From positions 1 to 44,516 of IMG/VR virus record IMGVR_UViG_3300044713_000162: a stretch of 44,516 nucleotides of DNA. One strand, 5' to 3'. Positions within the stretch are counted from its first letter, which is position 1. Each line of letters opens with the position of its first letter. This document shows positions 1-44,516 of this stretch, one piece after another. The DNA is from a virus. The notes beneath the pieces were generated by a model, which worked only from the letters and a program-made list of their open reading frames with translations, was not told where the DNA came from and made no database searches. A program made the position numbers and the translations under genes.

Positions 1-110
1 GGTCGCCATGCACGCGCAGATGCATCCATCGCGATCACACTCCGAACAGTTCCCCAGCAGACAGTTGACGCAGATGCGTGGGCCGACAATTGCCGCCGCC
101 GCTCTCTTCG
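1..110. repeat. Left copy of 110-bp terminal direct repeat
   Basis: Bases 1-110 are identical to 44407-44516. The reading frame of the gene on the minus strand at 231-1 continues in frame at 44406, so the two ends join. This indicates a circular assembly, either a circularly permuted genome or one with a short terminal repeat. The unique length is 44,406 bp. Confidence 0.97.
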
Positions 111-7594: not shown

Positions 7595-7837
7595 CTATAC
7601 CTGCGGCGGAGCGTTCAACTTGCCGAGGTTCGACGGAATTTCGAGCGCGATGACCGCGGTGATGCCGCCGTGCAATCCCGCCCAGAAATATCCCTTGAGA
7701 CAGACTTCGGTGAGACAACCATGCGCGTCGGCGAAGGCGTGCTTCACCGCCGCGACGAACGCTCCCCCGGCCAGCATGATTACGACTTGCACGGGATGGG
7801 GCAGGGAATTCCACCAGGCGCGAACTTTGGTGAGCAT
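7595..7837 (-). CDS. Putative holin, 80 aa
   Basis: The start ATG 7837 follows AAAGGATC. Two hydrophobic helices are visible, at residues about 17-35 (VQVVIMLAGGAFVAAVKHAF) and 48-66, joined by a short loop with two cysteines. Size, two spans and position next to the endolysin fit a class II holin, which forms membrane lesions that release endolysin at the end of infection. The identification rests on topology and neighbourhood only. Confidence 0.65.
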   Translation of the reverse strand: MLTKVRAWWNSLPHPVQVVIMLAGGAFVAAVKHAFADAHGCLTEVCLKGYFWAGLHGGITAVIALEIPSNLGKLNAPPQV

Positions 7838-8342: not shown

Positions 8343-10037
8343 CTAGTACGTTACCCAGTTGGTGCCGTTGCACATGACCGGAGCCACTACCGCGCCGCCG
8401 CTCGCATAGGTTCCGAGAAACGTCGGCGTGGTCGCATCACTCACCACGGTGCGTCCGCCTTTCCGGGCGCTGTTGCAGGCCGGAATCGCAGTTCCCGCGG
8501 CGCTGTAAATCACGCTCGGAATCAGCACCCCGGAGTAGTCCATACAGACCAGCAGGGTTCCCGGCGTGGTTCCCGTGGCCGTTCCGTCGTGCCAGGTCTG
8601 TTGGCAGTTGGTCCCGGTCAGATTGGTGGCCGTCAGTTGCGGATCGACGGACAAAGCCGTGGTGGGTCCGCTGGTCGTGCCCGTGATGGTGGGATTGATG
8701 TTCACGCCGATAAAACTCGTGCTGCCGGCGGTGGGATCAAATTCCGTGCCCACCCAGACGCCAATATTTTTCGAGGAGCCGGAAGCGGGCTGAAACAGCT
8801 CTTTCCCGTAGCCTCCGATCGTGCCGCTTAAATTGATTCCCCCGAGCACGATCCCGTAGTTGGGTCCGGTCGTGTTGGTGCGCGTGACCTGGCCGCCGAT
8901 ATCCACGTCCGCCGCGCCCCCGGTTCCGGCATTCCCCAGCAGTCCCGTGCTCGTCGCCGCCGCTTGCGCGAAGAAATTGTAGCCTTGGCTGTTGGTGACC
9001 CCGTCGCTCGGTTGCACTCCGATCTGCCCTGCGATATTCGCGAAGCCGTTGTTGATGTTGGCAAATGCGAGTTGCGGTGCCCCTTGCGCGGAGGAATTCA
9101 CCGAGGCGAAGAAGATCGAGCCGCCCGCGTTGGCCGGGTTGTTCCCGGTGAGGGAAAAGAACAGGCTGGGATTGTTGTTTCCGATGTTTCCCTTCGAGAA
9201 AATGTCCCACTGCATCTGCTGCGAAATGGTGCCGGTCCAGCTGTTGGCGGTAAATTCCAGAGCCGGCGTCGTGTTGACCGACGTCGCAGTGGCCGTCGCG
9301 GAGTTGAGGAATTGCAACACGCCCAGCGGCGCGGAGCCGGCCACTTGCTTCAGGGTGAGAGTGCTTTGCGCCGACGAAGCGGTGACCCCGCTCTCGGCCA
9401 CGCTGGCCTGATTGGCATGGTTGCTGGGATCGTCGAAGGTGATCGAGGTCGCCGTGTTGGTGATGAGGGAAACCGGCACGCCGTTCAGCCAGGTGCAGGT
9501 CGTAAAACCGGCGAAGGTCACGATGGCCCCCACGCCCAGCGGTCCCGCTTGATTGGTGGGGAACACCGTCATGCCCGTTCCCGTGAGAGTGACCACTCCG
9601 GAAGTTTCCGCGCAATGGGAAACCAGTCCCGCCGCCATCGTGGTCGAAGTGCCGGGAATATCCTGCAGCGTCCAGCCGTCCGTCGCCGAAGCCAGCGTCG
9701 GTCCCCACCAGGTGCCGTTCCATCCCGCGTAGGGCGAGGATTGCGGCGTCGAGGAAGTCGCGGGCGTCGAGTTGGTCAAGTTGAAGTTGCTGCTGCCCCC
9801 GCTCCCTCCGCTGGCCAGAACCCAGCTTCCGCCCGGAGTGGGGCAGGTGTAGATGTTCCCGTTCGAACTGTTCATGTAAATCACGTTCGTTCCGGGACAG
9901 GTGCCCGAGGGCGCACCCACACCAACTTGCATGCTGATGGGATAGTTCGACGGGCCGGGCGCGCCCTGCGCGAAGACCAGCGCACTCGCAAACAACAGCA
10001 GAGCAGGCAGAAGAGAGAGAAAGTTTTTGATTTTCAT
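8343..10037 (-). CDS. Fibre-like protein with Sec signal peptide, 564 aa
   Basis: The start ATG 10037 overlaps the upstream stop as ATGA. Residues 1-24 form a clear signal peptide (MKIKNF, a Leu/Ala core, then VFAQ). The mature protein is Gly/Thr/Ser/Asn-rich beta sequence, with no catalytic motif, ending near a repeat-like ATTPTFLGTYASGG region typical of fibre or host-recognition proteins. It lies at the distal end of the late unit, where phages keep tail fibres. A Sec signal on a virion protein is unusual, because virions assemble in the cytoplasm. It may be exported instead, or the signal may be retained. The fibre role is inferred. Confidence 0.7.
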   Translation of the reverse strand: MKIKNFLSLLPALLLFASALVFAQGAPGPSNYPISMQVGVGAPSGTCPGTNVIYMNSSNGNIYTCPTPGGSWVLASGGSGGSSNFNLTNSTPATSSTPQSSPYAGWNGTWWGPTLASATDGWTLQDIPGTSTTMAAGLVSHCAETSGVVTLTGTGMTVFPTNQAGPLGVGAIVTFAGFTTCTWLNGVPVSLITNTATSITFDDPSNHANQASVAESGVTASSAQSTLTLKQVAGSAPLGVLQFLNSATATATSVNTTPALEFTANSWTGTISQQMQWDIFSKGNIGNNNPSLFFSLTGNNPANAGGSIFFASVNSSAQGAPQLAFANINNGFANIAGQIGVQPSDGVTNSQGYNFFAQAAATSTGLLGNAGTGGAADVDIGGQVTRTNTTGPNYGIVLGGINLSGTIGGYGKELFQPASGSSKNIGVWVGTEFDPTAGSTSFIGVNINPTITGTTSGPTTALSVDPQLTATNLTGTNCQQTWHDGTATGTTPGTLLVCMDYSGVLIPSVIYSAAGTAIPACNSARKGGRTVVSDATTPTFLGTYASGGAVVAPVMCNGTNWVTY

Positions 10038-11311
10038 TTGGGACCGATCGCGAACCAGGTGTAGGGGGCTCCATCGGAGCTGTTGACGGTGACGCTTGTA
10101 TTCGTGATGCTGCCGGAGTAGTTGGTCGTTCCGATTCCCCCGGTGGTGAAGAGCACGACCGGCGTCCCGCTGAAGGCAGGGCTGAAGGTGATCGTGCCCG
10201 AGCCGGTGCCGGTGCCGAACTCGATGCGCAGCCCGGAGGACGGGGCAGTGATTGGTCCAGTGCCCGTTCCGGCATCGACGCAATTCCCGTTCGCATCCGT
10301 CGTCACCCCATCGCCAGAGGTGAACGATCCGGTGCAGGCGAAGAAATTCGCGCCCGTCGAGCCCTGCACGCCCGTTAAAGTCTGCGAGCCGCCGACTTTG
10401 TAGGAGAGCGCATCGAACGGTCCGGCAAACGCGGAATCATCGCCCAGGCGAAGTTGCAGGCCGGTCGAAACCGGCTTCAGCATGGGGAACGAGGAAGTGA
10501 ATCCCCCGAACCACAATTTCGCGGTCGCTCCGGTCAGCGCGAAGCCGCCGGCAAAACTGGCCGTGCCCACGTCGGAGGAGTTGACGCCCAGGCCTTCGTT
10601 GGCGTTGTTGGCGAAGTTGCGCCAGAAAATCGAATCGGAGTTTGCCAGGGCGACGGCGCCGGCGGTGGCGGGATTGCTTGCAGTCGAGAGGAACTGCGCC
10701 GCGGAACTCGTGGCGGTGGCGGCCACATTCGCCGCGCTGATGTTCGCCGTCGAAACGATGTTTCCGGTGGAGAAGTTGGCGCAGGTGTTGGGTACGCCTC
10801 CAAAGGAGCCGGCATCGTTCGCTTCCAGTTCGCAGTTGGAGCCGCCCGGCGAACCGACGGCCACCGTGGTGACGAACGGCCCCATCGAAATTCCATTCAC
10901 GGTGAGCGTGTAGGCATAGGTGCCGGAGGGCGTGTAGACGCCCAGGTTGCCGAAATTGTCGCCCGTCGCCTGGCAGGTGTTTGAATCCTGCAGCACGATC
11001 TGCGCGTTGGTCGGGCATGGCGAGACCGAAGTCAGAGAAGGGTACGTGTTGGCAAAATTGGTGCACGGGATCGCGTTCGCAGGGTAGTTGCACCATTGCA
11101 GGCTCACACCCGGCAGAGCCACCAGGAAAGGCAGCCCGGAGCCGGAAGTGGTCACCGCCCCGGCCGAGCCCGGCGCTCCTAAATCCCAGCGCGTGTTCTG
11201 GGCGTGGGCGACCCCACTTAGGTAACAGACCGTAACCAACACCAAAGTGAGCCAGGCGATCGGGCTTCGGTGGTCTGGCGGACGGAGCTGGGGTGAGAGA
11301 AGATTAGTCAT
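10034..11311 (-). CDS. Fibre-like protein with Sec signal peptide, 425 aa
   Basis: The start ATG 11311 gives MTNLLSPQL, a long n-region, a hydrophobic core and a cleavage site of the form VAHA-QNT at about residue 38. A TTG at 11344 would add 11 residues. The mature part is Gly/Ser/Thr/Asn-rich beta sequence with cysteines spaced through residues 70-110, and ends GAPYTWFAIGPK. It is coupled by ATGA to the second fibre-like gene and resembles it in composition. The likely role is host recognition or a secreted adhesin; the sequence alone cannot decide. Confidence 0.7.
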   Translation of the reverse strand: MTNLLSPQLRPPDHRSPIAWLTLVLVTVCYLSGVAHAQNTRWDLGAPGSAGAVTTSGSGLPFLVALPGVSLQWCNYPANAIPCTNFANTYPSLTSVSPCPTNAQIVLQDSNTCQATGDNFGNLGVYTPSGTYAYTLTVNGISMGPFVTTVAVGSPGGSNCELEANDAGSFGGVPNTCANFSTGNIVSTANISAANVAATATSSAAQFLSTASNPATAGAVALANSDSIFWRNFANNANEGLGVNSSDVGTASFAGGFALTGATAKLWFGGFTSSFPMLKPVSTGLQLRLGDDSAFAGPFDALSYKVGGSQTLTGVQGSTGANFFACTGSFTSGDGVTTDANGNCVDAGTGTGPITAPSSGLRIEFGTGTGSGTITFSPAFSGTPVVLFTTGGIGTTNYSGSITNTSVTVNSSDGAPYTWFAIGPK

Positions 11312-11519
11312 GATCAAACCAACCGCGCGGTGTCCGTTTTGCAATGAGGCGAAGAGTCATTTCACCGACCTCGATATCTGCTGCATTTGCGACGACTGCG
11401 TACTTGCCGGCAAAGCCAAATTTCTCGGCATCACCAAGCCCGATTCTCCCGGCGTCACTCCGGTTGGGGGAGAGATCGCGCGCCTCGCGCGGCTCGCGCC
11501 TGGGCCAAACTTCGCGTAA
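11310..11519 (+). CDS. Small rightward zinc-finger protein, 69 aa
   Basis: ATG 11310 lies within the palindrome TCATGA shared with the divergent fibre gene start (11311). The N-terminus has CPFC and then CCICDDC, a four-cysteine zinc cluster resembling the ClpX N-terminal zinc-binding domain. The last 65 bases overlap the 3' end of the leftward ejection-protein gene in antisense. The cysteine pattern supports a real gene, but there is no strong ribosome site. Confidence 0.5.
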   Translation: MIKPTARCPFCNEAKSHFTDLDICCICDDCVLAGKAKFLGITKPDSPGVTPVGGEIARLARLAPGPNFA

Positions 11520-13314
11520 GAAGATCAGTCAGGTCTTCGTTCTCGCCGGGAACCTGCGGCGCGCCTTGCTCCTGGATGCTTGCCGCGTGCTCTCTCAGGC
11601 GGTTTAAGAGCGGATCGGCGGTTCCTGCCGGTGCTGCTGTGGCTGGCGCGGCTGTCGGCGGTGCCTCTGAAGGCTCGGCCGCGATCGGCCGGGCTGTTAC
11701 TTCACCAGGCCGCGCAATCCGAGTGACGGCGCTCTCGGGAACTTCACCGTGAAACTTGAACCAGTTCGGGCCATTGGGACCGGGCCGGGCGGAAAATCCC
11801 GGCGCTTGGCTCAGATCAGTCGAGATCAACTCCTGCGGCTGGCCTTCGATGTCCTCTCGGCCCGGCATCATGCTCTCGGCTTCGGCTTGTGAGGCCGTAG
11901 CTTGTGCATGGCCCGCAGGACGATAAGGAATTCCTTCCTCGCCAATTGAGCGAGAGCGATAAACGCGGGCTTGAGCGGTTTGGCTGGGCGAAGGGATATC
12001 CTGCGCGGGTTTCGCTTTCGCGGGGCCGGTGTACTCGTCCAATCCGCCGGCGAAGGGTTTGTTCTCTGATGTGGCGTCGAGCGGTTTCGCGATGCGGGGC
12101 TTCGGTTCGTCGAGCCCGCCGGCGAACGGTTTGTTTTCGGTGGTGGCGTCGAGTTCTTTCGGCAGCTCGCGCGGGATTGCCTCTGGCGTGGCTTTCGGCG
12201 TGGCGATCCGCCCGAGAGCGGTGCTCGGTTCGACAGCCGGTTGCCCGCCAGTTTGCAATCCGCGCGCCTGCGTGACTTCCGCCGGCAACTTCGGCGCGGT
12301 GGCTTCCCAGTTCTTTTTCACCTTGCCGAGCGCGCGCACGCCAGGAATATCTTCGGCGACATCCGCGGCCGTTTTTCCCGCGGTGCGTGCGATCCGGTTG
12401 ACGGCCGCGCCTGGGGTCCTCGCAGCTTCTGCGCCGGCTCCGATCGCTCTGCCTGCGCCTTCGGTCGCGGCCGCAGTGAGCGCCTGGCCGGCCAGATCGC
12501 CGGAAGTGTCTTGCAAGGCTTTCCCGTAATGACTGAGCGGATCGGGCGAGGCGTTGATGTCGTGAATTGCTGCGGGAATTTGTGTTGCATCTTTGGCGGT
12601 CTGTCCAATCCCTCGCAGTGTGCGATACGCTGGCAGCGCGAGACGAGCCCGCGGGTCAGTGCCGACGATCGCTTCTTCATCCGCTCCGTGTGTGCGGGGA
12701 TCGAGCGTTTCGCCGATGCCGCGGACGGCGCTGCGAATCCCGCGCCCGACCGATTGCACTCCACTCAACGTCGGGTTGTACCAGGGACCACTGAGCGGAA
12801 TCTCTTTGTCGAGAAAGCCGGGCTCTTCTTTTTTCTCGGCCGTGTCGGTCTTCGGCGCGTACTTCGCCCAGGGGCCTGGCTCGGCGGAACCTTGGCCCGC
12901 GGCCGGCGCTGCGGCTGGAGCCTTCGCGTATTTCTCCCACGGCATGGCGGGTGCGGCGGCGCTCATCTTGGCTCCAACTTCGCGGCCCATTTCCGGCTGA
13001 ATCTCTGCGGGCAGCGGATTCGACACATCCATCTGCGGCGTGCCTGACCAGTTCTCACGGTTGAAGCTGACGCCTTGCGGCAGTCGCGTGATCGGGATGG
13101 TTGATTCAGAATCATCGTGCGGACGAATGTGTGTTGGGTTGGGGAGAACTCTTCCGCCGAAATCAGCGGGCGCGGTTTCGCTCGGTTCCGCCAGGCCGCC
13201 GGCTTCAAGCTGCGAGGGCGAGAGCTGCGAATATTCTTCGTCGGTGAGCGGGCGACTGCGCTGCTCGGCAGGAAGTTTCTGATACTGGTCCCAGGGAATG
13301 GTGCGAGCACTCAC
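11455..13314 (-). CDS. Putative internal/DNA-ejection protein, 619 aa
   Basis: The start GTG 13314 overlaps the upstream stop as GTGA. The protein is Ala/Pro/Glu-rich and mostly disordered. It has repeated PW-x-x-Y motifs (IPWDQYQKLP near the start, then MPWEKYAKAP and GPWAKYAPK), a pattern I associate with podoviral ejection proteins. A helical Ala/Gly-rich segment (about 240-330) could insert in membranes. Two near-identical segments reading LDATxENKPFAGGLDE lie about 22 residues apart. It follows the nozzle-like gene and two other internal-protein candidates. The assignment rests on composition, motif and position. Confidence 0.55.
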   Translation of the reverse strand: MSARTIPWDQYQKLPAEQRSRPLTDEEYSQLSPSQLEAGGLAEPSETAPADFGGRVLPNPTHIRPHDDSESTIPITRLPQGVSFNRENWSGTPQMDVSNPLPAEIQPEMGREVGAKMSAAAPAMPWEKYAKAPAAAPAAGQGSAEPGPWAKYAPKTDTAEKKEEPGFLDKEIPLSGPWYNPTLSGVQSVGRGIRSAVRGIGETLDPRTHGADEEAIVGTDPRARLALPAYRTLRGIGQTAKDATQIPAAIHDINASPDPLSHYGKALQDTSGDLAGQALTAAATEGAGRAIGAGAEAARTPGAAVNRIARTAGKTAADVAEDIPGVRALGKVKKNWEATAPKLPAEVTQARGLQTGGQPAVEPSTALGRIATPKATPEAIPRELPKELDATTENKPFAGGLDEPKPRIAKPLDATSENKPFAGGLDEYTGPAKAKPAQDIPSPSQTAQARVYRSRSIGEEGIPYRPAGHAQATASQAEAESMMPGREDIEGQPQELISTDLSQAPGFSARPGPNGPNWFKFHGEVPESAVTRIARPGEVTARPIAAEPSEAPPTAAPATAAPAGTADPLLNRLREHAASIQEQGAPQVPGENEDLTDLLTRSLAQARAARGARSLPQPE

Positions 13315-14672
13315 TGCGCTTTGTCCGGAACCTTTTCCCAGTTCTTTTGATCCGCCGGGTTGCCGCCCTTGAATTTGTAGCCGCCTTCGACCGTGCCGGC
13401 TTTGGGCGCTGCTGGCTGATTCCCGCCGCCGGGCGGAGCTTGATCGACTTGCGTGAGCGAGTGATGTGCGTCGGTCACGATCTTGCGGTGCTCTTTGGGA
13501 TCGTCGGAATCGAGAAGTTTCTGTCGCGCGTCGTCGAGCGCCTGCTGCTTTTGTTGCAGCTTCGCGTTGACCGCTTCCGTCAGGTCCCGAATCTGCTTGC
13601 GCTGATCAGGCGTGATCGAGTTGGCTTTCGCGGGGTCGAGGCTCCACTGGTTGATCGAGGCTTCGAGCGATTGCCACTTCGAGCGGCCGCCGACGACGCG
13701 GGAAATTTCCGCTTCGTTCATGCGTAATCCAGATCCCGCACCGCCCGCCATGATGGTGAGCAGTTCCGGGGCGATCGTGGCATCGGCTTGCGGGGAGTTC
13801 TGCGCCAACGATTCGCGCAGACGACTCATCCGCGCCTCAGCATCTTCGATCGGCTTCGCTAGAGTGTCGAGTTTGTTGTTGTTGTAGGTGTAGCTGCGGT
13901 CGGCGCGCGCGTCGGTCGCTCCTGCTTTCTCCGGTCGAGTCGTTGCCAGCGTATAAGCCTTCACCGCGTCGGCGATGCTGGCCCCTTTGTTTTTCTTTTG
14001 ATAGTCGTCGATGAATTGCTGCTCGGGAGTGTCCGGCTTCGTCGGTTTCACATCCTGCCCCGTCTGCTTCATCGCCTGGTAGGCTTCGAGATAGGTGAAG
14101 GGTTTTTGCGTCTCGGGATTCAGCCGCGGCTGGCCGTTCTCGCCGGTCATCAGATCGTGGATCGTGGTCTCTTCCGGCGTGAGCCCGGTTTTCGCCTTGT
14201 CCAGCTCGGCTTGCTTCCTCTCGTCCTCCGCCTGTTTCTCGTAAGCCGTCGAGGCCGTCTCGTAGCGCTGCTGCGCTTCCCGTTTCGGCGCTTCATAGAA
14301 CTGGTCCATCAGTTTCTCGCCGACTTGCGGGTTTTTATACGACGCCGCGCCGATCGCGATCGGAGAGAGAATCTTTTCCCACAGCGGCATCTCCTCCGGC
14401 TGGAAGTCTCCGGGCTTCGGGCGCAGTCCGCGCGGGCCGGGCTGCGCATCGGGGCCAGCAATGCGCGGCGTGACGTGCGAGGCGAGAGCTTTCGATTCGA
14501 GATCTTCCGTCGAGCCCGCGGCCGGAGGTGCGGCCGCTGCAGGCGTGGCAGTGGGAGTGGGCGCGGGTAAGGCACGCACAGCGGCCGAGGGAACCGCATC
14601 GGCCATGCTGGGCCGCGCGATGCCCATGCGCATCTGATCTTCGTCGTCGAGCATGCTGGGATCGAGAGTCAT
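13311..14672 (-). CDS. Putative internal virion protein with coiled coils, 453 aa
   Basis: The start ATG 14672 overlaps the PAPS-reductase-like stop as ATGA. An Ala/Pro-rich N-terminus of about 60 residues is followed by LWEKILSPIAIGAASY, then long helical segments rich in Gln, Lys and Glu with coiled-coil character, and a Gly/Pro-rich tail. This composition and its place among the genes after the nozzle suggest a protein packed in the head or ejected with the DNA. No enzymatic motif is seen. Confidence 0.5.
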   Translation of the reverse strand: MTLDPSMLDDEDQMRMGIARPSMADAVPSAAVRALPAPTPTATPAAAAPPAAGSTEDLESKALASHVTPRIAGPDAQPGPRGLRPKPGDFQPEEMPLWEKILSPIAIGAASYKNPQVGEKLMDQFYEAPKREAQQRYETASTAYEKQAEDERKQAELDKAKTGLTPEETTIHDLMTGENGQPRLNPETQKPFTYLEAYQAMKQTGQDVKPTKPDTPEQQFIDDYQKKNKGASIADAVKAYTLATTRPEKAGATDARADRSYTYNNNKLDTLAKPIEDAEARMSRLRESLAQNSPQADATIAPELLTIMAGGAGSGLRMNEAEISRVVGGRSKWQSLEASINQWSLDPAKANSITPDQRKQIRDLTEAVNAKLQQKQQALDDARQKLLDSDDPKEHRKIVTDAHHSLTQVDQAPPGGGNQPAAPKAGTVEGGYKFKGGNPADQKNWEKVPDKAQ

Positions 14673-15499
14673 GAGAGGGCCGGTTCGGCGGTTTCGCAAT
14701 CAGCGGATTCGATGTAGTCCGGCAATTCCGGCTTTGCGAAGCGAATGGTCGCGCTGATATTGGGAATCATGGCCTGCGCCTTCGGGCAGAAGACGGTCTC
14801 GGCTTCATCGCGATCGAGGCAGCGGGTGCAGGCGTGATAGTGGTCGTTGTTGAACGTGAGATCGGCGAATTCGCGGAAACTGTCGTCCTGGTTGTAGCGC
14901 CGCGAGTTGAACGGCACATCGAATTCCAGGGTGTAGCGCCACACATCGGCGTCGGTGAAATGCCGCAAGGGGAAAGCGTAGTCGCAGGATCCGGCGTTCT
15001 CGCGGACATCGACCTTCAGCGGGATCGCGCCCAGGCAAGCGTCGACGTCCGACGATTTGTGGCCCACGAATCCTACGTCCCAGGGAAAATTGAAGGTCCC
15101 CGTCGGCCGCTGATAAAGGTCTTTGAAGCCGCACAAAAAAGGTTTGCCGTCTTCCGGCGCGACCACTCCATTCGGCAGGTAGAGCCAGCCCGCGCCCACC
15201 TGGTAGCAGTTGGCGATTTCGATGCGACCGTTTTTCTTGGTGACCACGGTCTGCATCGGAGGGTAGTCGTACACCTCGTAGTCGCCTTCCTCGATCATGC
15301 GCGTCGCGAAGGCAAACTTTGACGGCGAGAACGGCTCGCGGTGAAACAGCAGCGGGAACTTCAGCCCCATCCGCTTCAAAATGTCGAGGATCACCATCGA
15401 GTCTTTGCCGAAACTGGCGAGCACCACGGGGTGGCGGTATTCGCGCACCACGCGGTCGATCAACTCCTCCGCTCCGGCGATTTTCTCCGTGAAGTTCAT
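14669..15499 (-). CDS. PAPS reductase-like PP-loop protein
   Basis: The start ATG 15499 overlaps the upstream stop as TAATG. This 276-residue protein has the PP-loop ASFGKDSMVILDIL at about residues 27-40, the SxGKDS signature of the CysH/DndC adenine-nucleotide alpha-hydrolase superfamily. Later features are HFTDADVWRYT, also typical of CysH-like enzymes, and a C-terminal CTRCLD plus a further Cys that could bind zinc or iron-sulphur. The family uses PAPS or activates sulphate or a nucleotide. No dnd genes are nearby, so DNA phosphorothioation is not supported. Phage members are common, but their role is unclear. Its place among virion genes is odd. Confidence 0.85.
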   Translation of the reverse strand: MNFTEKIAGAEELIDRVVREYRHPVVLASFGKDSMVILDILKRMGLKFPLLFHREPFSPSKFAFATRMIEEGDYEVYDYPPMQTVVTKKNGRIEIANCYQVGAGWLYLPNGVVAPEDGKPFLCGFKDLYQRPTGTFNFPWDVGFVGHKSSDVDACLGAIPLKVDVRENAGSCDYAFPLRHFTDADVWRYTLEFDVPFNSRRYNQDDSFREFADLTFNNDHYHACTRCLDRDEAETVFCPKAQAMIPNISATIRFAKPELPDYIESADCETAEPALS

Positions 15500-16110
15500 T
15501 AGAGAGCCATCAGCGCCGCAGAGCCGATCGTCCCGGCCGCGCCGATTGCGGCGTTGCTGCCCCCGCCTTTGCCCATGCGGTCGTTGATCGCCTGGTCGGA
15601 CGAGTTCAGGAAGCCGAGCGAGCTGCTGAGATCTTGCCCGTAGAGGCTTTGCAGCTGCTGCAGGGCCTGCTGGCGCTGCTGCTGCTGCAGTTGAGCTTGT
15701 TGCGTCTGGGTCGCGAGCGCATTTTGCGAGAGTTGCTTCTGGGCGGTGCGCGAGCCCGAGCCGATCGCGCCCTGGAAACCGCCGGCATTGCGCGTCCGAG
15801 CCGCCTGGAGATTGGCCTGGCCGGTGATGCCCGCGGTCGATCCGCCGAGCGACTGCTGGCTCGCCGTGTTCATGTAGGCGAGCTGCTGCGGGGTGTAGCC
15901 CTCCGGGTTGATGGCTTCGGATTCGAGCTGTGGGGTGAGGAAGCTGCTCAAGCCCCCGCTCTGGTTCTCCAGATTGGCCGACTCGCCCTGGGCCGCGCCC
16001 GCGTTGTTGAGCAGGATCTTCTTGTTGGTCGAGCCTGAAGATCCACCAATTCCCCAACCCAGGCCGGGGACCGTCGAAGCCGCTAATACCGGGTTTGCGC
16101 CTTTGCCCAT
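15499..16110 (-). CDS. Putative internal virion protein, 203 aa
   Basis: The start is ATG 16110. The N-terminus is Gly/Ser-rich, followed by a Gln-rich helical region (about residues 125-155, QQAQLQQQQRQQALQQLQ) and a Gly/Ala-rich hydrophobic C-terminus of about 20 residues that could insert in a membrane. This resembles the small ejection proteins of podoviruses. It lies immediately after the nozzle-like gene and overlaps the PP-loop gene. Confidence 0.55.
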   Translation of the reverse strand: MGKGANPVLAASTVPGLGWGIGGSSGSTNKKILLNNAGAAQGESANLENQSGGLSSFLTPQLESEAINPEGYTPQQLAYMNTASQQSLGGSTAGITGQANLQAARTRNAGGFQGAIGSGSRTAQKQLSQNALATQTQQAQLQQQQRQQALQQLQSLYGQDLSSSLGFLNSSDQAINDRMGKGGGSNAAIGAAGTIGSAALMAL

Positions 16111-16122
16111 AAGAAAAACTTT

Positions 16123-19100
16123 CTAGAGCGCCATCTGCCGCCGCGGCGCGATCGGGTCGACCATCAATCCGGGGACCAGCTTCTGCAGGCGGAATTGCAC
16201 ATCGGTTTCTCCCGGCAGCGGCGCGACCTGCACCATGAAAAAAATCCGCTCGCCGTGCACGCCCGCCGTCCACATCAGGTCGTAGGGCTGCGCCGTGCCT
16301 TCGTCGACGTCGGCGGAGAGCTGGCGGAAGGAACTCGGGGGCAGGGGATTGTTGAGCGAGTCGACCAGCGGCGTGAAATAAATCAGGCCCACGCCGGTCG
16401 CGTACATGGTCAGGCGCTTCAAAAGCTTGCGCCCGGTGCCGAGCTGCAGCTGCTGCTCCTGGTCGTGGTTCACGAAGCCGTAGGTGATGTAGTAGAGCCC
16501 GTCGGAATTCGCGCCACCGATCGCGCCGTAATCGTCGTCCGTCAATTTCGCGGGATCGAGGAAATAGAAATTCCCGAAGGTGCCGCCCAGGCAGAATTCG
16601 GCCTCATTGTTCGGCCGCATCAGGATCTCGCCCGTATTCATCGCCAGATTCCAGCGCGTCCACTTGCGCGTGAGATCGCTCGATTTCATGATGCCGGTCA
16701 GGGTGATGTGCAGGGGCGGGGCTCCGGAGATCTGCACCGCGGTGTCGAGTTCGCGGTAGTCCATCACCAGAATCAGGTTCGGGGTGACCGCCGCGCCGAT
16801 CGGAATGCCGACGTAGATACGCCGGTTGTGGGGATCGTTTTTCGTCCACACGGTTTGCTGCGCCGCCTGGTTGATCTGGTCCCACCAGGTCTGATATTCC
16901 TGCGAGATTTTCCAGTGATCGCCGCCCGCGAAAAGATAGAGCCCTTTGGGATCGGCGGACACGTCCCAGTCCTCCGCCGCGTCGCCCGAGCCGAACTGGC
17001 CGGGATCTCCGCCGCGCAGACTCATCGCGCCGACCGAGCGCGTAATCTGGTTCACCGTCCAGTCGTCGGGCTCGTTGTCGTTGGAGCTGAACTCGTGCAC
17101 CCCGGACGCGGTTTTCAAAATGGAATTGTTGCGCTGCAGCGAGAAGCAGCGGATGGGGCCGGGATCGTCCTCCGGTCCGAGATTTCCGGTGGTGAGCGCG
17201 AAGGCTTCCGGGTTTTCGACGTAACTCCAGCGCGAAAGATTGTCGCGGAAGGGATCTTCGACAAAAATGATTTCGTTTTCGCCCAGAGTCACGGTAGCGG
17301 CGTTCGAGAGGTTGATCACGTAGAGCGAGAGCAGGAGATCCGGCGGAATCGTGCTCGGGGTTTCGAGCGTGAACGCCACCAGCGAGGTGAATCCGCCGGC
17401 GGTGCCGAGCGAGTTGATGGGGATGGTCGCGGTTGAAGAAAATCCCGTCGAGACGCTCGAGAGCGAGAGCACGATGTCGCCGGGAAGATTCAGGGCGCTG
17501 GCTTTCGCCCACAGGCGGAACTGGTAGCTCGTGTTCGGCGAAATAATCGGATCGCCGAAGCTGTCGAGGTCGGCCGGCTGCGACAGCAAGCCTTTTTTGT
17601 TCCCGCTGCCGTCCCCGGTGATCTGCCAGGTCCAGCCATCCGCCCAGGGACCGCCCGCGACCAGGAGTCCGCCCAAGTTGCCTGCTGCATCCCAGCCCGA
17701 AGGGGCGTTGCTCCCCACTCCAGTAAGGGAGCCTCCGCAGAATCCCAGATTTAAGAAATTTTCGATCTTGTTGTAGTCGCCCCAGCAGGCGAGGCGCGAT
17801 TCGTAGGCAAAGAATCCCAGCACCGGGCCGAGTACCGCCTGGTCGAACAGATCGTTTCCGATTTGATCAATGGGGACGGCCGCGAACAGCGTGTTGTCGG
17901 GCACGTCGAAGGTGAACGAAGTCGAAGTGTTGTCGGGAACGATGGTCGATTGCACCACCACCGGCGCCGCCAGCAGGCCGGAAGGGTTTGGCAGGTTCAC
18001 GCTGGCCGGGATGATGAAAAAATTGTCGCCGCCGGCGCCGGTGAAGCCGAGCACGCGCGCGACCACGTTCGCGGGACCGAGCGGAAGATTGGTCGCCGTC
18101 CACTTGCTGTTGCCCACGCTGATAAATTGGCCGGCGGGCGAGGGTTTCGAGAGGAAGCCCTGGCGCGTGAGCCACATCACCACCACCTGGTGCACGCCGA
18201 CCGAACTCTGTCCGCCCGGATTCAGGGTTCCGCCCGTGGCGTTCCCGGTGTCAGTGATCAGTTGCGGCGAGCTCGCCACCGAGAACAGGAAATTCTCGTC
18301 GTCGATCACGTCAATCACTTGCCAGTTCACCGGATTCAGAATCGAGGCCGTGTAAGCAACGCCGGACTGGTTGGCGGTGAGCCCGGTCGACACCACCAGG
18401 CTGGTCGGGGAAGTCACGCCGGTGACTGTGGTCTCGACGCCGTTGACCGTGATGGTCTGACCGTTCAGTCCGGCAGTGAAAAGACTGCCCGAAACCCAAC
18501 TCACGATGAAGCCGGTGGAGTCGGTGTCGACATCGCCCGCAAAACTCACAGCCGGCGCGGCGTTGTTCGGATTGAAGCCGCCGGAAGTGGGGGAGGCTCC
18601 CTTGATGACGCAGAAATCGCCGTTGGTCAGCCCGTGCGGCGCCGACGTGGTGCACAGCGCGGCCGGGAGATTGACGAATCCGCCCGATCCGGGAGAAAGG
18701 CCGGTGGTTTCATTGAAGTAGGTGATCGAGAGTCCGTCGGCCGCCACCGCGATGACGTTGAAAATTCCGTTGTAGCCGGCGGGCGCGCCGAACACGATGA
18801 AGAGCTGGCCGGGGATGATGGGCTGCGTGCTGGAGGCGCCAAAGGTGAGCGTGCAGATGTTTCCCGCCTGGCTCGCTCCGGTGATGGCGTTCAAATAGCC
18901 GGTGTCGTTGGTGTCAAGTCCGGTGGTGGCGATCGCGACCGCGCTCTGCGCATCAGCAACGGCGGGCGGAGCTCCAGGCCCGTCCATGGTCACGCGATCG
19001 AGGAAGGTTCCGTCGTATTGCAGCGGAATGCCTTGCCCATGCAGCAGATCAGAGAAGGCGATGTACTCGCGGCCGAAGGCGGAGACCGATTGCGCGTAGA

Positions 19101-19434
19101 GGCCGGGCGTGACTTCGAACAGGCTCGACGAAGTTCCCGGCGAAGTCGAAACCGGCTCCACGTAGAGCGTCCCGGTCGAATCGAGAAAGAGCGTGAGCAC
19201 CTGATCGTTCGGCTGGATGTAGCTTTTGGTGTAGAGAATCGGATGCCCGGTCGGGGAGAGCAAAACGCCGTGCAGGCCCCAGCGCGAAAACACTTCGCCG
19301 GGCAGGAACATCACTTCCCGGTTGTCGGGCGAGACGCCTTCCGGGCAATCCGGCGGCGCGAGTTCGGAGTCAGTGCCCCCGAACAGCATCAGGGGCACGT
19401 CGACGACGGGAAGCTCTGGGGCGGCGGTAGCCAT
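16123..19434 (-). CDS. Large tail nozzle-like structural protein, 1103 aa
   Basis: The start ATG 19434 is used; GTG 19437 is in frame. The product is a beta-rich protein with repeated short strands and Gly/Asp turns. The C-terminal 450 residues contain WxY/DWxxxxxTRSVGA blocks and FAGGDHWKIS, which look like propeller blades of tail-nozzle proteins (P22 gp10 or T7 gp12 type). It is larger than those (about 470 and 790 residues), and the N-terminal half has Ig-like character. It lies downstream of the connector-like gene, the order usual for podovirus tails. A U-rich leader without Shine-Dalgarno precedes it. The exact role is inferred. Confidence 0.6.
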   Translation of the reverse strand: MATAAPELPVVDVPLMLFGGTDSELAPPDCPEGVSPDNREVMFLPGEVFSRWGLHGVLLSPTGHPILYTKSYIQPNDQVLTLFLDSTGTLYVEPVSTSPGTSSSLFEVTPGLYAQSVSAFGREYIAFSDLLHGQGIPLQYDGTFLDRVTMDGPGAPPAVADAQSAVAIATTGLDTNDTGYLNAITGASQAGNICTLTFGASSTQPIIPGQLFIVFGAPAGYNGIFNVIAVAADGLSITYFNETTGLSPGSGGFVNLPAALCTTSAPHGLTNGDFCVIKGASPTSGGFNPNNAAPAVSFAGDVDTDSTGFIVSWVSGSLFTAGLNGQTITVNGVETTVTGVTSPTSLVVSTGLTANQSGVAYTASILNPVNWQVIDVIDDENFLFSVASSPQLITDTGNATGGTLNPGGQSSVGVHQVVVMWLTRQGFLSKPSPAGQFISVGNSKWTATNLPLGPANVVARVLGFTGAGGDNFFIIPASVNLPNPSGLLAAPVVVQSTIVPDNTSTSFTFDVPDNTLFAAVPIDQIGNDLFDQAVLGPVLGFFAYESRLACWGDYNKIENFLNLGFCGGSLTGVGSNAPSGWDAAGNLGGLLVAGGPWADGWTWQITGDGSGNKKGLLSQPADLDSFGDPIISPNTSYQFRLWAKASALNLPGDIVLSLSSVSTGFSSTATIPINSLGTAGGFTSLVAFTLETPSTIPPDLLLSLYVINLSNAATVTLGENEIIFVEDPFRDNLSRWSYVENPEAFALTTGNLGPEDDPGPIRCFSLQRNNSILKTASGVHEFSSNDNEPDDWTVNQITRSVGAMSLRGGDPGQFGSGDAAEDWDVSADPKGLYLFAGGDHWKISQEYQTWWDQINQAAQQTVWTKNDPHNRRIYVGIPIGAAVTPNLILVMDYRELDTAVQISGAPPLHITLTGIMKSSDLTRKWTRWNLAMNTGEILMRPNNEAEFCLGGTFGNFYFLDPAKLTDDDYGAIGGANSDGLYYITYGFVNHDQEQQLQLGTGRKLLKRLTMYATGVGLIYFTPLVDSLNNPLPPSSFRQLSADVDEGTAQPYDLMWTAGVHGERIFFMVQVAPLPGETDVQFRLQKLVPGLMVDPIAPRRQMAL

Positions 19435-19437
19435 CAC

Positions 19438-23610: not shown

Positions 23611-24891
23611 TTAGTAGCTCGCCGGGATGCCAGCATTCGGCCAGTACACACCTGCTCTTGGGTTATCAACAAAAAAATTGAACCCGCCCCAGATGTAGGT
23701 GACCGTGGCCGCCGACAATCCACCGCTCGCGCCGTAGATCGGCCACAAGGTTTGCCCGCCGAAATCGAGCGGACCGATCGGTTTGATCTCGCCGCGGCCC
23801 CAGTGCTTGAGCACCAGGCCGTCGAGGCGTCCGCGCTTGGCGTGGATCGAGACCAGCTTCTCCATGCCGCCGATGGTTTCGGCCGAGTCGCGTTGCAGCA
23901 TGTCGACGGCGTTGCCGCCTTTCAACTGATTCGCGACCACGATTTGCGGAGTGAGCGACAGGTTCTGCCAGGCCGCGTCCTGGTCGGTGTTGCAGTGCAC
24001 CAGGAACTCTTTCACGTTGGGGTTGTCGATGCCCAAGGCCGACTTCATCGCGTTCTTGCCGCGCTGGATGGCCGCGGGAGTGACCGCGAAGCCAGCCAGG
24101 TTCACCTGGGGCGTGATCAGGCGTCCGGGATAGGCCGGGCGCCCCAGGTTCAGCCAGGTGCCGGTGTTGCCGGGGTTGTTCTGGTGATACTGCAGGGAGA
24201 ACAGCGAGGTCGACGCCACGCCGGGAGCTCCGGCAATGATGCAGAGATCGCCGGCGACGGTGCCCGCGGGAACCGGCCCGGTGAGATAGACCGTCTGCGT
24301 CGACGTGGTTGCGTCGTTCGACAGGACGGTGACCGTGCCGTCGGGGTTATAACCGGCGCGCGCGGGTTGGCCCAGCGCCGAGAAGATGTTGAAGCTCATC
24401 TGGTCCTGGAACTGGTTGGCGTTCCCGACGACGAGCTGGTTGGCTCCCGTCGAGACCACGGTGTCGATGGTGCCCGATCCGGTCGAATCGGAGTTGAGCA
24501 GCGACTCCAGAAACACCTTGAAGCGCTGCGTCATCTTTTCGAGGTTCCGCTTGGCTGCGGGCTCGACCGCTTTTTCCTTGTTGTCGGTCGCGATCTCGGC
24601 GTACTTGGTGAACTCGGTCGCGGCCGAGAAAAACACCGGGGAGAGTTGCCAGTAGGTCGAGACGATGGCTTTGCCGCGTCCGAAGTCGCCGCCGTCCGGA
24701 TCCACCTGCGAAGGCGAAGTGCCGGAGTAAACGTCGAGGATGCCGCGCATGGCGCGGGAAGACTGCACTTCGACGTTGCGTTTCTCGATCTTGTCGAACA
24801 GGGTCGAGTCGCCCTGCATCAGCTCCTCGATGCGGGGCAGAAGTTTTTCGTACTGATAGGCGATGTATTGCGCGTTGGTTCCTTGTGGCAT
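23611..24891 (-). CDS. Major capsid protein
   Basis: The start ATG 24891 follows GACCCGGAGCTTACGACC. This 426-residue protein comes right after scaffold and portal, the usual order. The N-terminal helical region (MPQGTNAQYIAYQYEKLLPRI, DKIEKRNV) and later blocks such as TPAAIQRGKNAMKSALG and a C-terminal WGGFNFFVDNPRAG fit an HK97-fold capsid protein of the podoviral type. About 415 copies would be expected for a T=7 head; that is family knowledge. A 250-base non-coding leader with stable hairpins precedes it. Confidence 0.85.
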   Translation of the reverse strand: MPQGTNAQYIAYQYEKLLPRIEELMQGDSTLFDKIEKRNVEVQSSRAMRGILDVYSGTSPSQVDPDGGDFGRGKAIVSTYWQLSPVFFSAATEFTKYAEIATDNKEKAVEPAAKRNLEKMTQRFKVFLESLLNSDSTGSGTIDTVVSTGANQLVVGNANQFQDQMSFNIFSALGQPARAGYNPDGTVTVLSNDATTSTQTVYLTGPVPAGTVAGDLCIIAGAPGVASTSLFSLQYHQNNPGNTGTWLNLGRPAYPGRLITPQVNLAGFAVTPAAIQRGKNAMKSALGIDNPNVKEFLVHCNTDQDAAWQNLSLTPQIVVANQLKGGNAVDMLQRDSAETIGGMEKLVSIHAKRGRLDGLVLKHWGRGEIKPIGPLDFGGQTLWPIYGASGGLSAATVTYIWGGFNFFVDNPRAGVYWPNAGIPASY

Positions 24892-25141: not shown

Positions 25142-26539
25142 TTACGGCCGCTTCACCTGGATCAGTTTTCCGGTTTTCAGGCGGTAAATCCCGTTCCACT
25201 TGTCGGTGAGCGGATCGGAGTAGTTGATGTCCTTCGCTGGCGGGAGCGCATTCACTAAGACCGGCGTCTCTTTGCCGAAGCTGCGGCGTTCTCCGTTGCC
25301 GTTGCCCGCGCCCTTGTCGCCTTTGTCGTTGTCGGCCGCGTTGCCGCGCCGAGCGCCTGCTTTCGGAGCGCCGAACCAGTCCGCGAAGATCGTCGCCGCC
25401 ACGCCGGGTTTGTCGTCCGTGCCTTTGATGGCCTCGTCATGGCGCTTGTTCAGCATGCGAATGCATTTCTTGGTGTCGCCGGAATGCAGCGCTTCCGAGT
25501 AGCGGTCGAGCCACTTCTCGTCGGCCAGAATTTCCTGCTCCATCTCTTTGCGAACGTCTTTCAAAAAGCGCCCGTAGCGGTTGGGTTGTGTTTTCTGTAG
25601 CTTTGCCAGATCGAACTGGGCAGCCTTCGCGGCCGCGGCGACTGAGCTCTCGATCGAGCGCGTCAAATAGGGCGCGGCTTCGACGTTGATGGTCTTGTTG
25701 CGGATGGTGGCTTTTTCCTCGCTGAGTTTCGTCTTCTCGGCCGCCAGCGGATCGCCCTGCTTCTCGGGAACTTTCTTCGCGAATTCGTGGCGCGAGTTGT
25801 AGTACTTCGCGAGCTGCTGCGCGAGGGCTTTCGCCTCCGGGTTGTCTTTGATCGAGGCCAGCAGCGAGTAAATCTTTTCGACCGGCAGATTCTGCAGATC
25901 GTTCACGATCACCTTCGCCATCAGGTGGTCGTAGTGCTCGGGGTGATGTTCGGAGACGTAGCCGAGCGCGTTGGTGAAATGCTTCAGCGAGAGATCGGGA
26001 TCTTCCTTGAAGGAATTCTCGATCCACTTCGGGTCTCCGGAGTTGAAGGCTTCGGCATCGGCGTTGTAGATTTCGAGATCGCCCTGCAGCTTCTCGATCC
26101 CGTCGACGCCGCCAAACTCTTCGATCTGTTTGGCGAGGCCGATCGCTTCCTTCACTCCGCCGGGGAAGACTTTGGCAAGCGCGCGCTGGTTGAAGTAGTC
26201 GGCGCGGAGGTTCTTGTCTTTCTCGAAGAGCTCTTTGTACTTGGCCGGGACTTTGCGCCCGTCGGCGAGTGGGACTTGCGCGTTCGGATCGGTGCCGTCG
26301 CCTTCGCCCTGCCCTTCAGCGCCCAGATCGGCATCGTCACCAGCGCCAGCGTCGCCGCCGCCATCGCCACCATCGCCACCGTCGCCGGAAGATCCATCCC
26401 CGCCGCCGCCAGCATCCCCAGCTCCGCCATCGCCACCGCCTCCATCGCCCGCAGTCGCGAGCGCACTCGCGCCATCGGCGAAGAAAAATGTTCCCGCAAA
26501 GAGAAATCGTAACAGCCAGAATTTAAGCAGGTGTCGCAT
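25142..26539 (-). CDS. Putative capsid scaffolding protein with signal-like N-terminus, 465 aa
   Basis: ATG 26539 is chosen because CTGGAGGACTTCCCA precedes it. The first 25 residues are strongly hydrophobic with basic residues (MRHLLKFWLLRFLFAGTFFF, then ADGASALA), like a Sec signal. A Gly/Asp-rich segment of about 50 residues follows, then an acidic, helical Lys/Glu-rich protein of about 380 residues. Such composition and its position between portal and capsid are typical of scaffolds. Scaffolds normally act in the cytoplasm, so the hydrophobic start is odd; it may tether assembly to the membrane, or the start may lie later. It overlaps the portal gene by 17 bases. Confidence 0.68.
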   Translation of the reverse strand: MRHLLKFWLLRFLFAGTFFFADGASALATAGDGGGGDGGAGDAGGGGDGSSGDGGDGGDGGGDAGAGDDADLGAEGQGEGDGTDPNAQVPLADGRKVPAKYKELFEKDKNLRADYFNQRALAKVFPGGVKEAIGLAKQIEEFGGVDGIEKLQGDLEIYNADAEAFNSGDPKWIENSFKEDPDLSLKHFTNALGYVSEHHPEHYDHLMAKVIVNDLQNLPVEKIYSLLASIKDNPEAKALAQQLAKYYNSRHEFAKKVPEKQGDPLAAEKTKLSEEKATIRNKTINVEAAPYLTRSIESSVAAAAKAAQFDLAKLQKTQPNRYGRFLKDVRKEMEQEILADEKWLDRYSEALHSGDTKKCIRMLNKRHDEAIKGTDDKPGVAATIFADWFGAPKAGARRGNAADNDKGDKGAGNGNGERRSFGKETPVLVNALPPAKDINYSDPLTDKWNGIYRLKTGKLIQVKRP

Positions 26540-28898
26540 TGGGAAGTCCTCCAGGTGCTGGGGTCGCAAGATCGGGTAAGGCGGCAGCTCCGGCCGGCGG
26601 AGCTCCACCGCCAGGAGCGCCGGGGCCACCGGGTTTCGGCATCGGCATGGGCGGCGGGGGCGGCCCTTCAATCGGGGGCGGGAACATGAAGCCTTTGGCC
26701 TTGCCCGCCTTCACGTGTTCCATCATGTGCAGTTTCAAATCAAGCCAAATCAAAGCGCCCTGGCGGCCGTCGCCCAGGTCTTTCGTGCGTTTGATCTTCT
26801 GGCCTTCCGGCGAGTTCAGGATGCGCGAACATTCCAGAGCTTCGTTCACGTGATCTTCGGAATCGTCGACCGGGATCGAGGATTTCTGAATCGGGGGCTG
26901 CTTGGGCAGCGGCGGCATCTCCTGCGGTTGTTTCCCGAGCGCGGCGGCTGCGGTTGCGAGTTGCTGCTGGCGCTGCTGCTCGCGCTGGTCAGTTGCGTCC
27001 TGGTCGATTTCCGGGCCTTCGCCTTCCTGCATCTCGGCCCACTCTTGAATCTGTTTCTGGCGGGGATCGCGGCCGGGGATGTCGAACTCGTCGAGGCCGA
27101 TGGCTTCAAACTGCAGCTCTTGATTGGTGGGCAGCTGCAGGGCCGCGGCCAGGGGCGGATTCTGCGGCGCCGCGGCCATCAGGCCTTTGATGGTCGTTGA
27201 CTTGGCCTGCCAGGACTCAGGGAATCCCTGCGCCGGGATGGGCGAGCACACAAATCCTCCGCGCAGAATCAGCGGATCGATTTCGATGGCTTCCTCGCGC
27301 CGGTTGGAGTTCTCGACCAACGCTGCGAATTTCTCATCGCGCTTGGCGGCGATCTTGGCGGCCTGCTCATGGATCTTCGCCGAGAAATTCTGGAAGGGCA
27401 CCCAGACGATGGTCAGCACGCCGAGCGACTGCTGCAGCGCCTGGCCGTAGGCCTTCGCCGTCTTCTGGTCTTCCATGTTGGCCCCGAACATGGCGGGCTG
27501 GTTCAAGGTGACGAGCTGGGTCAGCGGTCCCTGCAGGTTCTGGATCCATTCCGTCAGCACCATCGGCGCTTCGACGCCGGGCTCGGGGAAGAAACTGTTT
27601 TCGAGAGGCTCTCCCTCGGCCTTTTTCTTGAAACGGATCTGGCCGTACTGCGCCAGCTGGCTCATGATGGCCTGGGCTTCGGTCTCGTCCATGTCGGCCC
27701 ACAGCGAGGGCACGCAATATTTCAGCAGCTCGGCTGTGAGGTTCATGGCATCGTTGAATTCCATCTGCACCGGCACGTGCGGATCGCCGAGAGAGTTGCG
27801 GGCCTGGCCTTCGCCGGGTTCGGCGTGCATGACGGTGACGTGCTCGTCGAGCGCGCAGGCCTCGGCGCCGCAGAAGGTTTCGCCGATAAAGGTCAGCTTG
27901 CAGCCCTTGGGGAAAATTCCGTCTTTCTCGACTTCATTGCCGTCTTCGTCTTCGCCCTGGCCGCCCACAAAGAACAGGCGCGCTTCGTCTTCGCATTCCC
28001 AGAAGGCCGCGGGGCGCAACCACCACTCATCTTCGGTCGTGAGATACGCCAGGGAGTCCTGCGAGAGCTGGGTGATCGATTCCGCGGTCGAGATGCGAGC
28101 CATGCGCGCGATCTCATCGTTCGGCGTAGCCGACTTGCCGCCGGCGGTGATCTTGTCGGCGACCTGCTTGTGCTTCTGCTTCATCGAGACCACGTCGTGG
28201 TCTTTTGAAACTTTGCAGTAGGGCCACAGCTCCTCGCAGGTTTCGTAGATGGGAACTTTCGATTCGAGCACTCCGGCGTAGCGGGTTTTTTCGGTGTCGC
28301 CGCAGCCTTCGGTGATGGCGATCACGCGGCCGTCGTTCCACAGCAACCGTCCGATGGTGATCTGCGCGTCCTGGGCGGGGTTGTACTTGTCGTAGACTTT
28401 GAGATATTTCTCGGCTTCGCGCGCCGCCCGGATCGAGGCGGATTCCTTGGGCTTGTCCGGCTCCATGCGCACCGAGGGCGGATTCTGCGCGAACACGGCG
28501 GTGAAGATCTTGCCGTTCGGTTTGTAGATGTTGAAATCTTGCGCCGACGTTCCTTGCTCGTCGTTCAGGTTCTCCGCGGTGTTGACCGCGCCGCCCTGCT
28601 GCCCCACCTGGAAGCAGCAGCTATCGTTGTTCCACCAGACGTGTTGCAGCCCGATCCAGAAATAGCGTTTCAGGGTGCAGCGCAGAATCTCGATCTGCCG
28701 TCCCCACTGATCGCGCAGGTTGAACTTGTTGCACAGCGCGCGCAGCTGCTCGACGCGCTTTTCGGGAAGGTCGAGAAACTTCGGCCCGTATTGCTCTTCG
28801 GGCGTCTGGGTTTCTTCCGCGGAGTCGTCTTCGTCCTGCGCGTCCGCGTCGGCGGGCAGGGAAGCGGTTTCTTCGGGAGTGTCGAGTAGATCAGGCAT
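26523..28898 (-). CDS. Portal protein (P22-like)
   Basis: This 791-residue protein is similar in size and plan to the P22 gp1 portal (725 residues). It forms the dodecameric ring through which DNA is packaged and ejected. An acidic N-terminus of about 40 residues is followed by helical and mixed domains (KRYFWIGLQHVWWNNDSCCF, NPPSVRMEPDKPK), a central helical stem region, and a Gln-rich, Pro/Gly-rich tail beyond residue 650. The tail (PPPIEGPPPPPMPMPKPGG) is disordered and may form the P22-like barrel or interact with ejection proteins. It precedes scaffold and capsid genes. Confidence 0.85.
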   Translation of the reverse strand: MPDLLDTPEETASLPADADAQDEDDSAEETQTPEEQYGPKFLDLPEKRVEQLRALCNKFNLRDQWGRQIEILRCTLKRYFWIGLQHVWWNNDSCCFQVGQQGGAVNTAENLNDEQGTSAQDFNIYKPNGKIFTAVFAQNPPSVRMEPDKPKESASIRAAREAEKYLKVYDKYNPAQDAQITIGRLLWNDGRVIAITEGCGDTEKTRYAGVLESKVPIYETCEELWPYCKVSKDHDVVSMKQKHKQVADKITAGGKSATPNDEIARMARISTAESITQLSQDSLAYLTTEDEWWLRPAAFWECEDEARLFFVGGQGEDEDGNEVEKDGIFPKGCKLTFIGETFCGAEACALDEHVTVMHAEPGEGQARNSLGDPHVPVQMEFNDAMNLTAELLKYCVPSLWADMDETEAQAIMSQLAQYGQIRFKKKAEGEPLENSFFPEPGVEAPMVLTEWIQNLQGPLTQLVTLNQPAMFGANMEDQKTAKAYGQALQQSLGVLTIVWVPFQNFSAKIHEQAAKIAAKRDEKFAALVENSNRREEAIEIDPLILRGGFVCSPIPAQGFPESWQAKSTTIKGLMAAAPQNPPLAAALQLPTNQELQFEAIGLDEFDIPGRDPRQKQIQEWAEMQEGEGPEIDQDATDQREQQRQQQLATAAAALGKQPQEMPPLPKQPPIQKSSIPVDDSEDHVNEALECSRILNSPEGQKIKRTKDLGDGRQGALIWLDLKLHMMEHVKAGKAKGFMFPPPIEGPPPPPMPMPKPGGPGAPGGGAPPAGAAALPDLATPAPGGLPNATPA

Positions 28899-33554: not shown

Positions 33555-33661
33555 AACGGCCACAACTCACGCCAACGGTAGCGATGACAGCCGTTGCCGG
33601 GAATCCAGCGCCAGTACATGCGCCATGCCCAGGCCTGCACTGCATTCTTGAACTTCCTCAT
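33551..33661 (-). CDS. Tiny Trp-rich protein, 36 aa
   Basis: ATG 33661 overlaps the terminase stop as ATGA and its own stop overlaps the next ATG. The 36 residues contain six tryptophans (AWAWRMYWRWIP), with basic residues. Double ATGA coupling in a dense operon supports it. Its role is unknown; a membrane-active peptide is possible. Confidence 0.6.
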   Translation of the reverse strand: MRKFKNAVQAWAWRMYWRWIPGNGCHRYRWRELWPL

Positions 33662-44368: not shown

Positions 44369-44516
44369 GGGAACAGTCTCCCGGTTTCACGATTGGCAGA
44401 ATTCACGGTCGCCATGCACGCGCAGATGCATCCATCGCGATCACACTCCGAACAGTTCCCCAGCAGACAGTTGACGCAGATGCGTGGGCCGACAATTGCC
44501 GCCGCCGCTCTCTTCG
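44365..44516 (-). CDS. 3' part of the cysteine-rich gene (second copy of its middle)
   Basis: This is the continuation of the gene at 1-231. Positions 44516-44407 repeat bases 110-1, then 13 further codons (GTG AAT ... CCA) and the stop TGA at 44367-44365. The C-terminal 13 residues read VNSANRETGRLFP. Count this with the left-edge entry as one gene. Confidence 0.85.
   Translation of the reverse strand, partial: KRAAAAIVGPRICVNCLLGNCSECDRDGCICACMATVNSANRETGRLFP
44407..44516. repeat. Right copy of 110-bp terminal direct repeat
   Basis: This is identical to bases 1-110 of the window. Remove one copy to obtain the circular unit. Confidence 0.97.

Follow-up and report, generated by a model that had tools for sequence, protein, structure and literature searches.

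Virion proteins of tailed phages are held to assemble in the cytoplasm, so a Sec signal peptide on a tail fibre is unexpected. Two adjacent fibre-like genes of a soil phage, here called gene 1 and gene 2, raise the question of whether their products leave the cytoplasm and, if so, where they end up. The first-pass annotation, which had the coordinates of both genes exactly right, offered two options: either the exported proteins act free outside the cell, or lysis is followed by their attachment to virions. Comparison with relatives supports the export common to both options, and attachment to virions at lysis appears to be the likeliest destination.

The window, i.e., the whole stretch of 44,516 nucleotides that was analysed (IMGVR_UViG_3300044713_000162), opens with 110 bases (1–110, plus strand) that recur as an exact copy at 44407–44516. 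This direct terminal repeat implies that the window is a complete phage genome. Contamination by host DNA was considered and rejected. In a sibling phage (IMGVR_UViG_3300050821_005345), the capsid protein is 94%, the large terminase subunit (TerL) 90% and the portal-like protein 82% identical. The late genes lie on the minus strand, and their order resembles that of podophages: TerL (33658–35250, matching phrog_979), a gene termed sp3, a portal-like protein (26523–28898), a scaffold-like protein, a major capsid-like protein (23611–24891), a 369-aa protein, a conserved 1104-aa tail protein (16123–19437), proteins of 462 and 619 aa, gene 1, gene 2, a phage lysozyme (7861–8277) and a small holin-like membrane ORF (7595–7837). 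Because the phage is far from described families, several assignments were made from order, size and conservation only; the portal-like protein is named from order and size and the holin-like ORF from its sequence. Given this order, gene 1 and gene 2 occupy the place of podophage tail fibres. The 619-aa protein (11455–13314), 5′ of gene 1 at the position of an internal virion protein, has homologs in three related contigs (L012, L096, and L097). The 1104-aa protein sits where T7 carries gp12 and is 83% identical in the sibling; it is no variable fibre. Family searches of the genes of this complete genome found no candidate fibre or receptor-binding protein without a signal.

Several other features of the genome stand apart from this question. 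A gene within the virion structural module (14669–16273, minus strand) resembles PAPS reductase in its C-terminal half, an unusual place for a sulfur-metabolism gene, and is 79% identical in the sibling (L003:13935–14739). A 69-aa ORF with zinc-ribbon-like CPFC and CCICDDC motifs (11310–11519, plus strand) lies head to head with gene 1. The scaffold-like protein (25142–26539, minus strand) has a very hydrophobic N-terminal segment, MRHLLKFWLLRFLFAGTFFFADGASA, mostly conserved in the sibling, and is perhaps membrane-tethered. At 1291–1653 on the minus strand, a small protein is encoded that looks exported (MKNVFSVALLALTMLLALPASAQ) and whose tail is rich in cysteine (CQCIYG..CGCWC..CNGCGY).

Signal peptides were called by inspection by eye together with a home-made rule that asks for a positively charged n-region, a hydrophobic core and a small residue at each of −3 and −1. 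Gene 1 (10034–11311, minus strand, 425 aa) begins with MTNLLSPQLRPPDHRSPIAWLTLVLVTVCYLSGVAHA, predicted to be cleaved after VAHA and before QNTRW, which gives a signal of residues 1–37 (11201–11311). Gene 2 (8343–10037, minus strand, 564 aa) begins with MKIKNFLSLLPALLLFASALVFA, with predicted cleavage after VFA and before QGAPG (residues 1–23, 9969–10037). In a residue-shuffle test the signal score was reached in 1 of 5000 shuffles for gene 1 and in 0 of 5000 for gene 2, and the holin-like ORF alone passed among the other late genes tested; the Sec-type signals first read from the two sequences are thus upheld, and a chance hydrophobic stretch was rejected as their source. A downstream start that removes the signal, which the first-pass annotation had named as one case against its own reading, was looked for. 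No start codon just 3′ of the signal is accompanied by a Shine–Dalgarno-like sequence, and the two genes overlap as ATGA, which fixes the ATG of gene 2; a start-site artefact was rejected on these grounds. The two genes had been described as a pair, and both indeed carry signals, but the pair is incomplete. The missing member is sp3 (30385–32109, minus strand), located between TerL and portal, which encodes a third signal-bearing fibre-like protein of 574 aa. Its signal (residues 1–26, 32032–32109), as clear as the other two, is identical at 23 of 27 positions in the sibling, the whole protein at 54.5%. The signal-bearing proteins of this phage are thus its variable, surface-type ones.

Relatives of gene 1 and gene 2 were reached through profile-like queries, after direct searches had given none: these returned C-terminal fragments only from 50,697 phage records, no confirmed relative from viral and bacterial contigs and, for gene 2, nothing from plasmids, and neither protein matched a significant family in Pfam, PHROGs, or the sequences of the PDB. 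A match of gene 1 to Manatee Spring phage (MW202444; E 0.9) is non-significant on its own and serves as an illustration of a signal-bearing fibre. Directly behind its signal, gene 1 carries a conserved domain (10841–11200, minus strand) shared with seven other viral proteins; four cysteines are invariant among the eight proteins compared. The seven contigs (L094–L100) each have a signal by rule or by eye, and the C-terminal parts of their proteins differ, the one in L100 being a pectate-lyase tailspike (PF12708). At the C-terminal tip of gene 1, which ends in YTWFAIG, residues 373–409 (10085–10195, minus strand) faintly resemble the H-type lectin domain PF09458, below the cut-off (E 0.18; 12.4 bits against a Pfam cut-off of 24 bits). 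The beta domains named in the first-pass annotation are putative; for gene 1, AlphaFold yields no usable structure (pLDDT 36).

Gene 2 ends in a well-modelled C-terminal module (8346–8501, minus strand; pLDDT 92–97) containing Cys521 and Cys556. Comparison with PDB structures gave no match, and in BFVD the only matches are phage proteins; judged from the model, the module is probably an undescribed fibre-tip fold. These last ~50 residues recur in Burkholderia phage Bm1 (E 2e-3), in a 1001-aa protein that itself has an N-terminal signal, MKKLVSALLLFAASVGVLA, followed by Q. A module scan recovered 80 viral contigs and nine bacterial ones, the latter from Acetobacteraceae, Acidobacteriota, Rhizobium, Bradyrhizobium, Paraburkholderia, and Burkholderiales. 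Roughly half the viral module proteins and 8/9 of those on bacterial contigs have a signal peptide, the remainder looking cytosolic. Among other genes of at least 200 aa in the same viral loci, 12 of 346 scored as signal-bearing, most of which look like additional fibre-type neighbours. In the 50,697 phage records, the signal-type module is found in Bm1 only, so that signal-bearing fibres are nearly invisible in cultured phages.

A homolog of gene 2 (L012:6342–8282) is 61% identical from residue 89 onward, yet the first 88 residues of the two proteins are unrelated and both retain a signal. That unrelated N-termini have each kept a signal indicates that export is selected; the same replacement speaks against the N-terminus of gene 2 being a conserved virion anchor. 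The cysteines of the C-terminal module follow the signal as well. The first, in a PVxCNG motif, is nearly universal. The second, in LPxC, occurs in every signal-bearing protein of the non-redundant set (38/38), whereas a single one of the 22 complete proteins that lack a signal has it (Fisher 2.8e-15); with signals called by eye counted as absent, the figures are 33/33 versus 6/27 (p 3.7e-11), both p-values being inflated by relatedness. On the tree, the signal changes at least five times, only two of these changes lying on supported branches, with the cysteine concordant in every independent pair; close relatives in L014, L018, L045, and L108 lack both the signal and the second cysteine. The sole exception to the cysteine rule is a stand-alone 97-aa ORF (L067:7809–8099) that consists of the module alone, with both cysteines and no signal; it follows a short signal-bearing ORF in another frame, an arrangement that possibly reflects a frameshift. 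Even numbers of cysteines occur in the mature part of 35 of 40 signal-bearing proteins, but in only 11 of 22 where the signal is absent; in the window, the numbers are 8 (gene 1), 8 (gene 2), and 12 (sp3). Such a pattern is the mark that would be expected of folding in an oxidising compartment.

A second, unrelated module shows the same coupling of signal and cysteine pairs. In relatives of the window phage, signal-bearing genes form tandem arrays of two to four, located between the internal virion genes and the lysis genes; L012, L097, L099, and L100 have arrays of three or four, and those of L012 and L097 lie directly 3′ of the homolog of the 619-aa protein. The genes that surround the signal-bearing ones are head, tail, and lysis genes. 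Small signal-bearing proteins are also encoded a short distance 3′ of fibre genes in L094 (11435–11986, 184 aa) and L097 (7946–8440, 165 aa). In the first protein of an array, the domain right after the cleavage site is 46.8% identical to the start of the tail spike of Xanthomonas phage PBR31 and related to the tailspikes of Shewanella phage X14 and Pseudoalteromonas phage H6/1. In each of the eight known phages that were inspected, this domain begins near residue 3, is preceded by no signal and lacks two added cysteines that are present in all four soil-phage copies (L012, L097, L099, and L100). The tailspike genes of PBR31 and H6/1 follow an internal or ejection protein, the same place as the arrays. 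By this comparison, the array members are homologous to genuine tailspikes and have acquired a signal and cysteines. Gene 1 and gene 2 share the tailspike position between an internal virion protein and the lysis genes and, having signals, depart from the signal-free, cytosolic PBR31 type. The profile of the tailspike N-domain gives a non-significant E of 0.094 with gene 1, and the N-terminus of gene 2 is not related to it.

The likely host emerges from bacterial genomes. Integrated in an Acidobacteriota genome (G293) is a distant relative with homologs of TerL, portal, scaffold, capsid protein, 369-aa protein, and 1104-aa protein in conserved order, continuing into signal-bearing proteins of 1214 and 251 aa, a holin-like gene and the host chromosome. 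In a second Acidobacteriota genome (G301), the gene 1 domain is part of a stand-alone protein that has a signal and in whose vicinity no phage genes were seen. Together they suggest that the window phage probably infects a diderm acidobacterium, on the thin basis of one match per 396 genomes. Such a chromosomal Acidobacteriota protein (L123:15302–18679, 1126 aa) joins a signal, the gene 1 domain and a beta-helix-like body, with no phage genes seen nearby; by analogy it is a possible bacterial adhesin. Bacteria may thus use the same parts as these phage proteins.

These observations can be accommodated in one scheme, in which gene 1, gene 2, and sp3 are tail-fibre- or tailspike-type proteins on the Sec route. 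The fibres would be made late, from an operon shared with internal virion proteins and lysis genes. Their signal peptides would direct them across the inner membrane of the diderm host, probably an acidobacterium, and would be removed at AxA/Q, whereupon disulfides and trimers would form in the oxidising periplasm. Holin, lysozyme, and rupture of the outer membrane would then free the fibres along with the virions, and a conserved domain directly behind the signal would dock them on the released particles as receptor-binding fibres. The parts of the scheme differ in strength. Export, signal cleavage and oxidation are strongly indicated and very probably take place jointly in some form, since in two modules unrelated to each other the signal is accompanied by cysteine pairs, and since it is kept while the following 88 residues are replaced. 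Trimerisation is plausible; docking at lysis might follow. Virion attachment is preferred because of the fibre position, the tailspike N-domains in array relatives and the lack of another fibre in the complete genome, and the chain as a whole, docking included, is given not far short of even chances. Rather more tentatively, it may be proposed that widespread soil tailed phages build their virion fibres through the host Sec system, with periplasmic folding and disulfides and fitting only at lysis, so that assembly is split between two compartments.

Several points count against attachment. Gene 2 inverts the pattern usual for fibres, keeping its C-terminal part while its N-terminal part is replaced. 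Bm1 possesses a full set of ordinary, signal-free tail-fibre genes, far from which its signal-bearing protein is encoded, and this protein is probably not the main fibre there. Sp3, between TerL and portal, has an odd location for a fibre, the gene 1 domain shows no significant relation to the tailspike N-domain and also occurs in a stand-alone chromosomal protein, and the association of cysteines with signals has few independent origins. The first three fit better with a different fate, in which exported free fibres or spikes never enter the virion and instead mask or degrade the polymer that serves as receptor, both on infected cells and on the debris of lysis, leaving progeny untrapped and blocking superinfection. 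Bm1, a virulent phage (PMC12003559), would then carry such a protein beside its complete ordinary fibre set, the pectate-lyase or GDSL-like hydrolase domains of several relatives would act on the polymer, and multi-gene arrays could cover several polymers. However, the exported genes hold the sole tail-fibre position seen in the window, L097, L099, and L100, the complete window offers no other receptor-binding candidate, and the array members retain a tailspike N-terminal domain that a free enzyme would not need. Free spikes are rather unlikely, and virion and free roles could coexist in different phages.

That the proteins are instead lysogen-expressed adhesins, i.e., surface or secreted fibres altering attachment or biofilm formation of the lysogen, seems improbable. 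The mosaic adhesive trimer (MAT) proteins of Bdellovibrio follow the same plan of signal, conserved ~120–130-aa domain and variable fibre tip (PMC10769870), the window encodes a tyrosine-recombinase domain, and a stand-alone chromosomal copy exists in an Acidobacteriota genome. In many of the phages, however, the genes are part of the late operon for structural proteins and lysis, a virulent lifestyle is reported for Bm1 (PMC12003559), and no outer-membrane anchor was seen. Still less is to be said for an uncleaved membrane anchor or an incidental hydrophobic stretch that leaves the proteins inside or tethered: cleavage is a prediction and the n-region of gene 1 is long with a weak net positive charge, but AxA/Q is found in nearly all members, and the cysteine pattern of the mature parts argues for export. 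A misassigned start, with the true proteins beginning signal-free downstream, is hardly credible in spite of the missing clear Shine–Dalgarno sequence of gene 1, as the signal recurs in dozens of relatives with differing next residues.

If Sec-routed fibres do join virions, the cytoplasmic-assembly view of tailed phages fails for a common soil group, and receptor-binding proteins gain disulfide chemistry. If they act free instead, phages export spikes of their own during infection that block or cut the receptor. Metagenome annotation may, moreover, take such phage fibres for secreted proteins of the host. No report of tailed-phage fibres with Sec signals was found in the literature searched, a coverage that excluded most subscription papers and bioRxiv. 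Filamentous phages make the virion proteins pIII and pVIII with signal peptides, but their virions are non-lytic and membrane-assembled and unrelated to tailed-phage fibres. The podophage tailspikes of PBR31 (ORF34), X14, and H6/1 share with the array members of the relatives a homologous N-terminal domain (up to 46.8%), the gene position and similar beta-helix bodies; they differ in being signal-free and lacking the added cysteines, and their N-domain has no significant alignment with gene 1 or gene 2. Lom of phage lambda is a signal-bearing protein encoded between tail-fibre genes, but it is an outer-membrane beta-barrel made in lysogens and no fibre (PMC12309495), whereas the window proteins (425–574 aa) are Gly/Ser/Thr-rich with fibre modules and match no barrel family. 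WceF of Pantoea stewartii resembles them as an exported protein of tailspike fold, but is a bacterial exopolysaccharide enzyme with a Tat signal (PMC7949094). The nearest published plan is that of the Bdellovibrio MAT superfamily, with a signal, a conserved ~130-aa beta domain and variable phage-fibre tips in several paralogs, to which the L123 protein may also conform; the likeness is one of plan. MAT proteins belong to a predatory bacterium, which displays them on its surface (PMC10769870), while the proteins described here come from phage late operons and, for the window, from a complete phage genome. Set beside these systems, the sequences suggest that fibres of this group mature outside the cytoplasm, unlike the tail fibres of phages studied so far.
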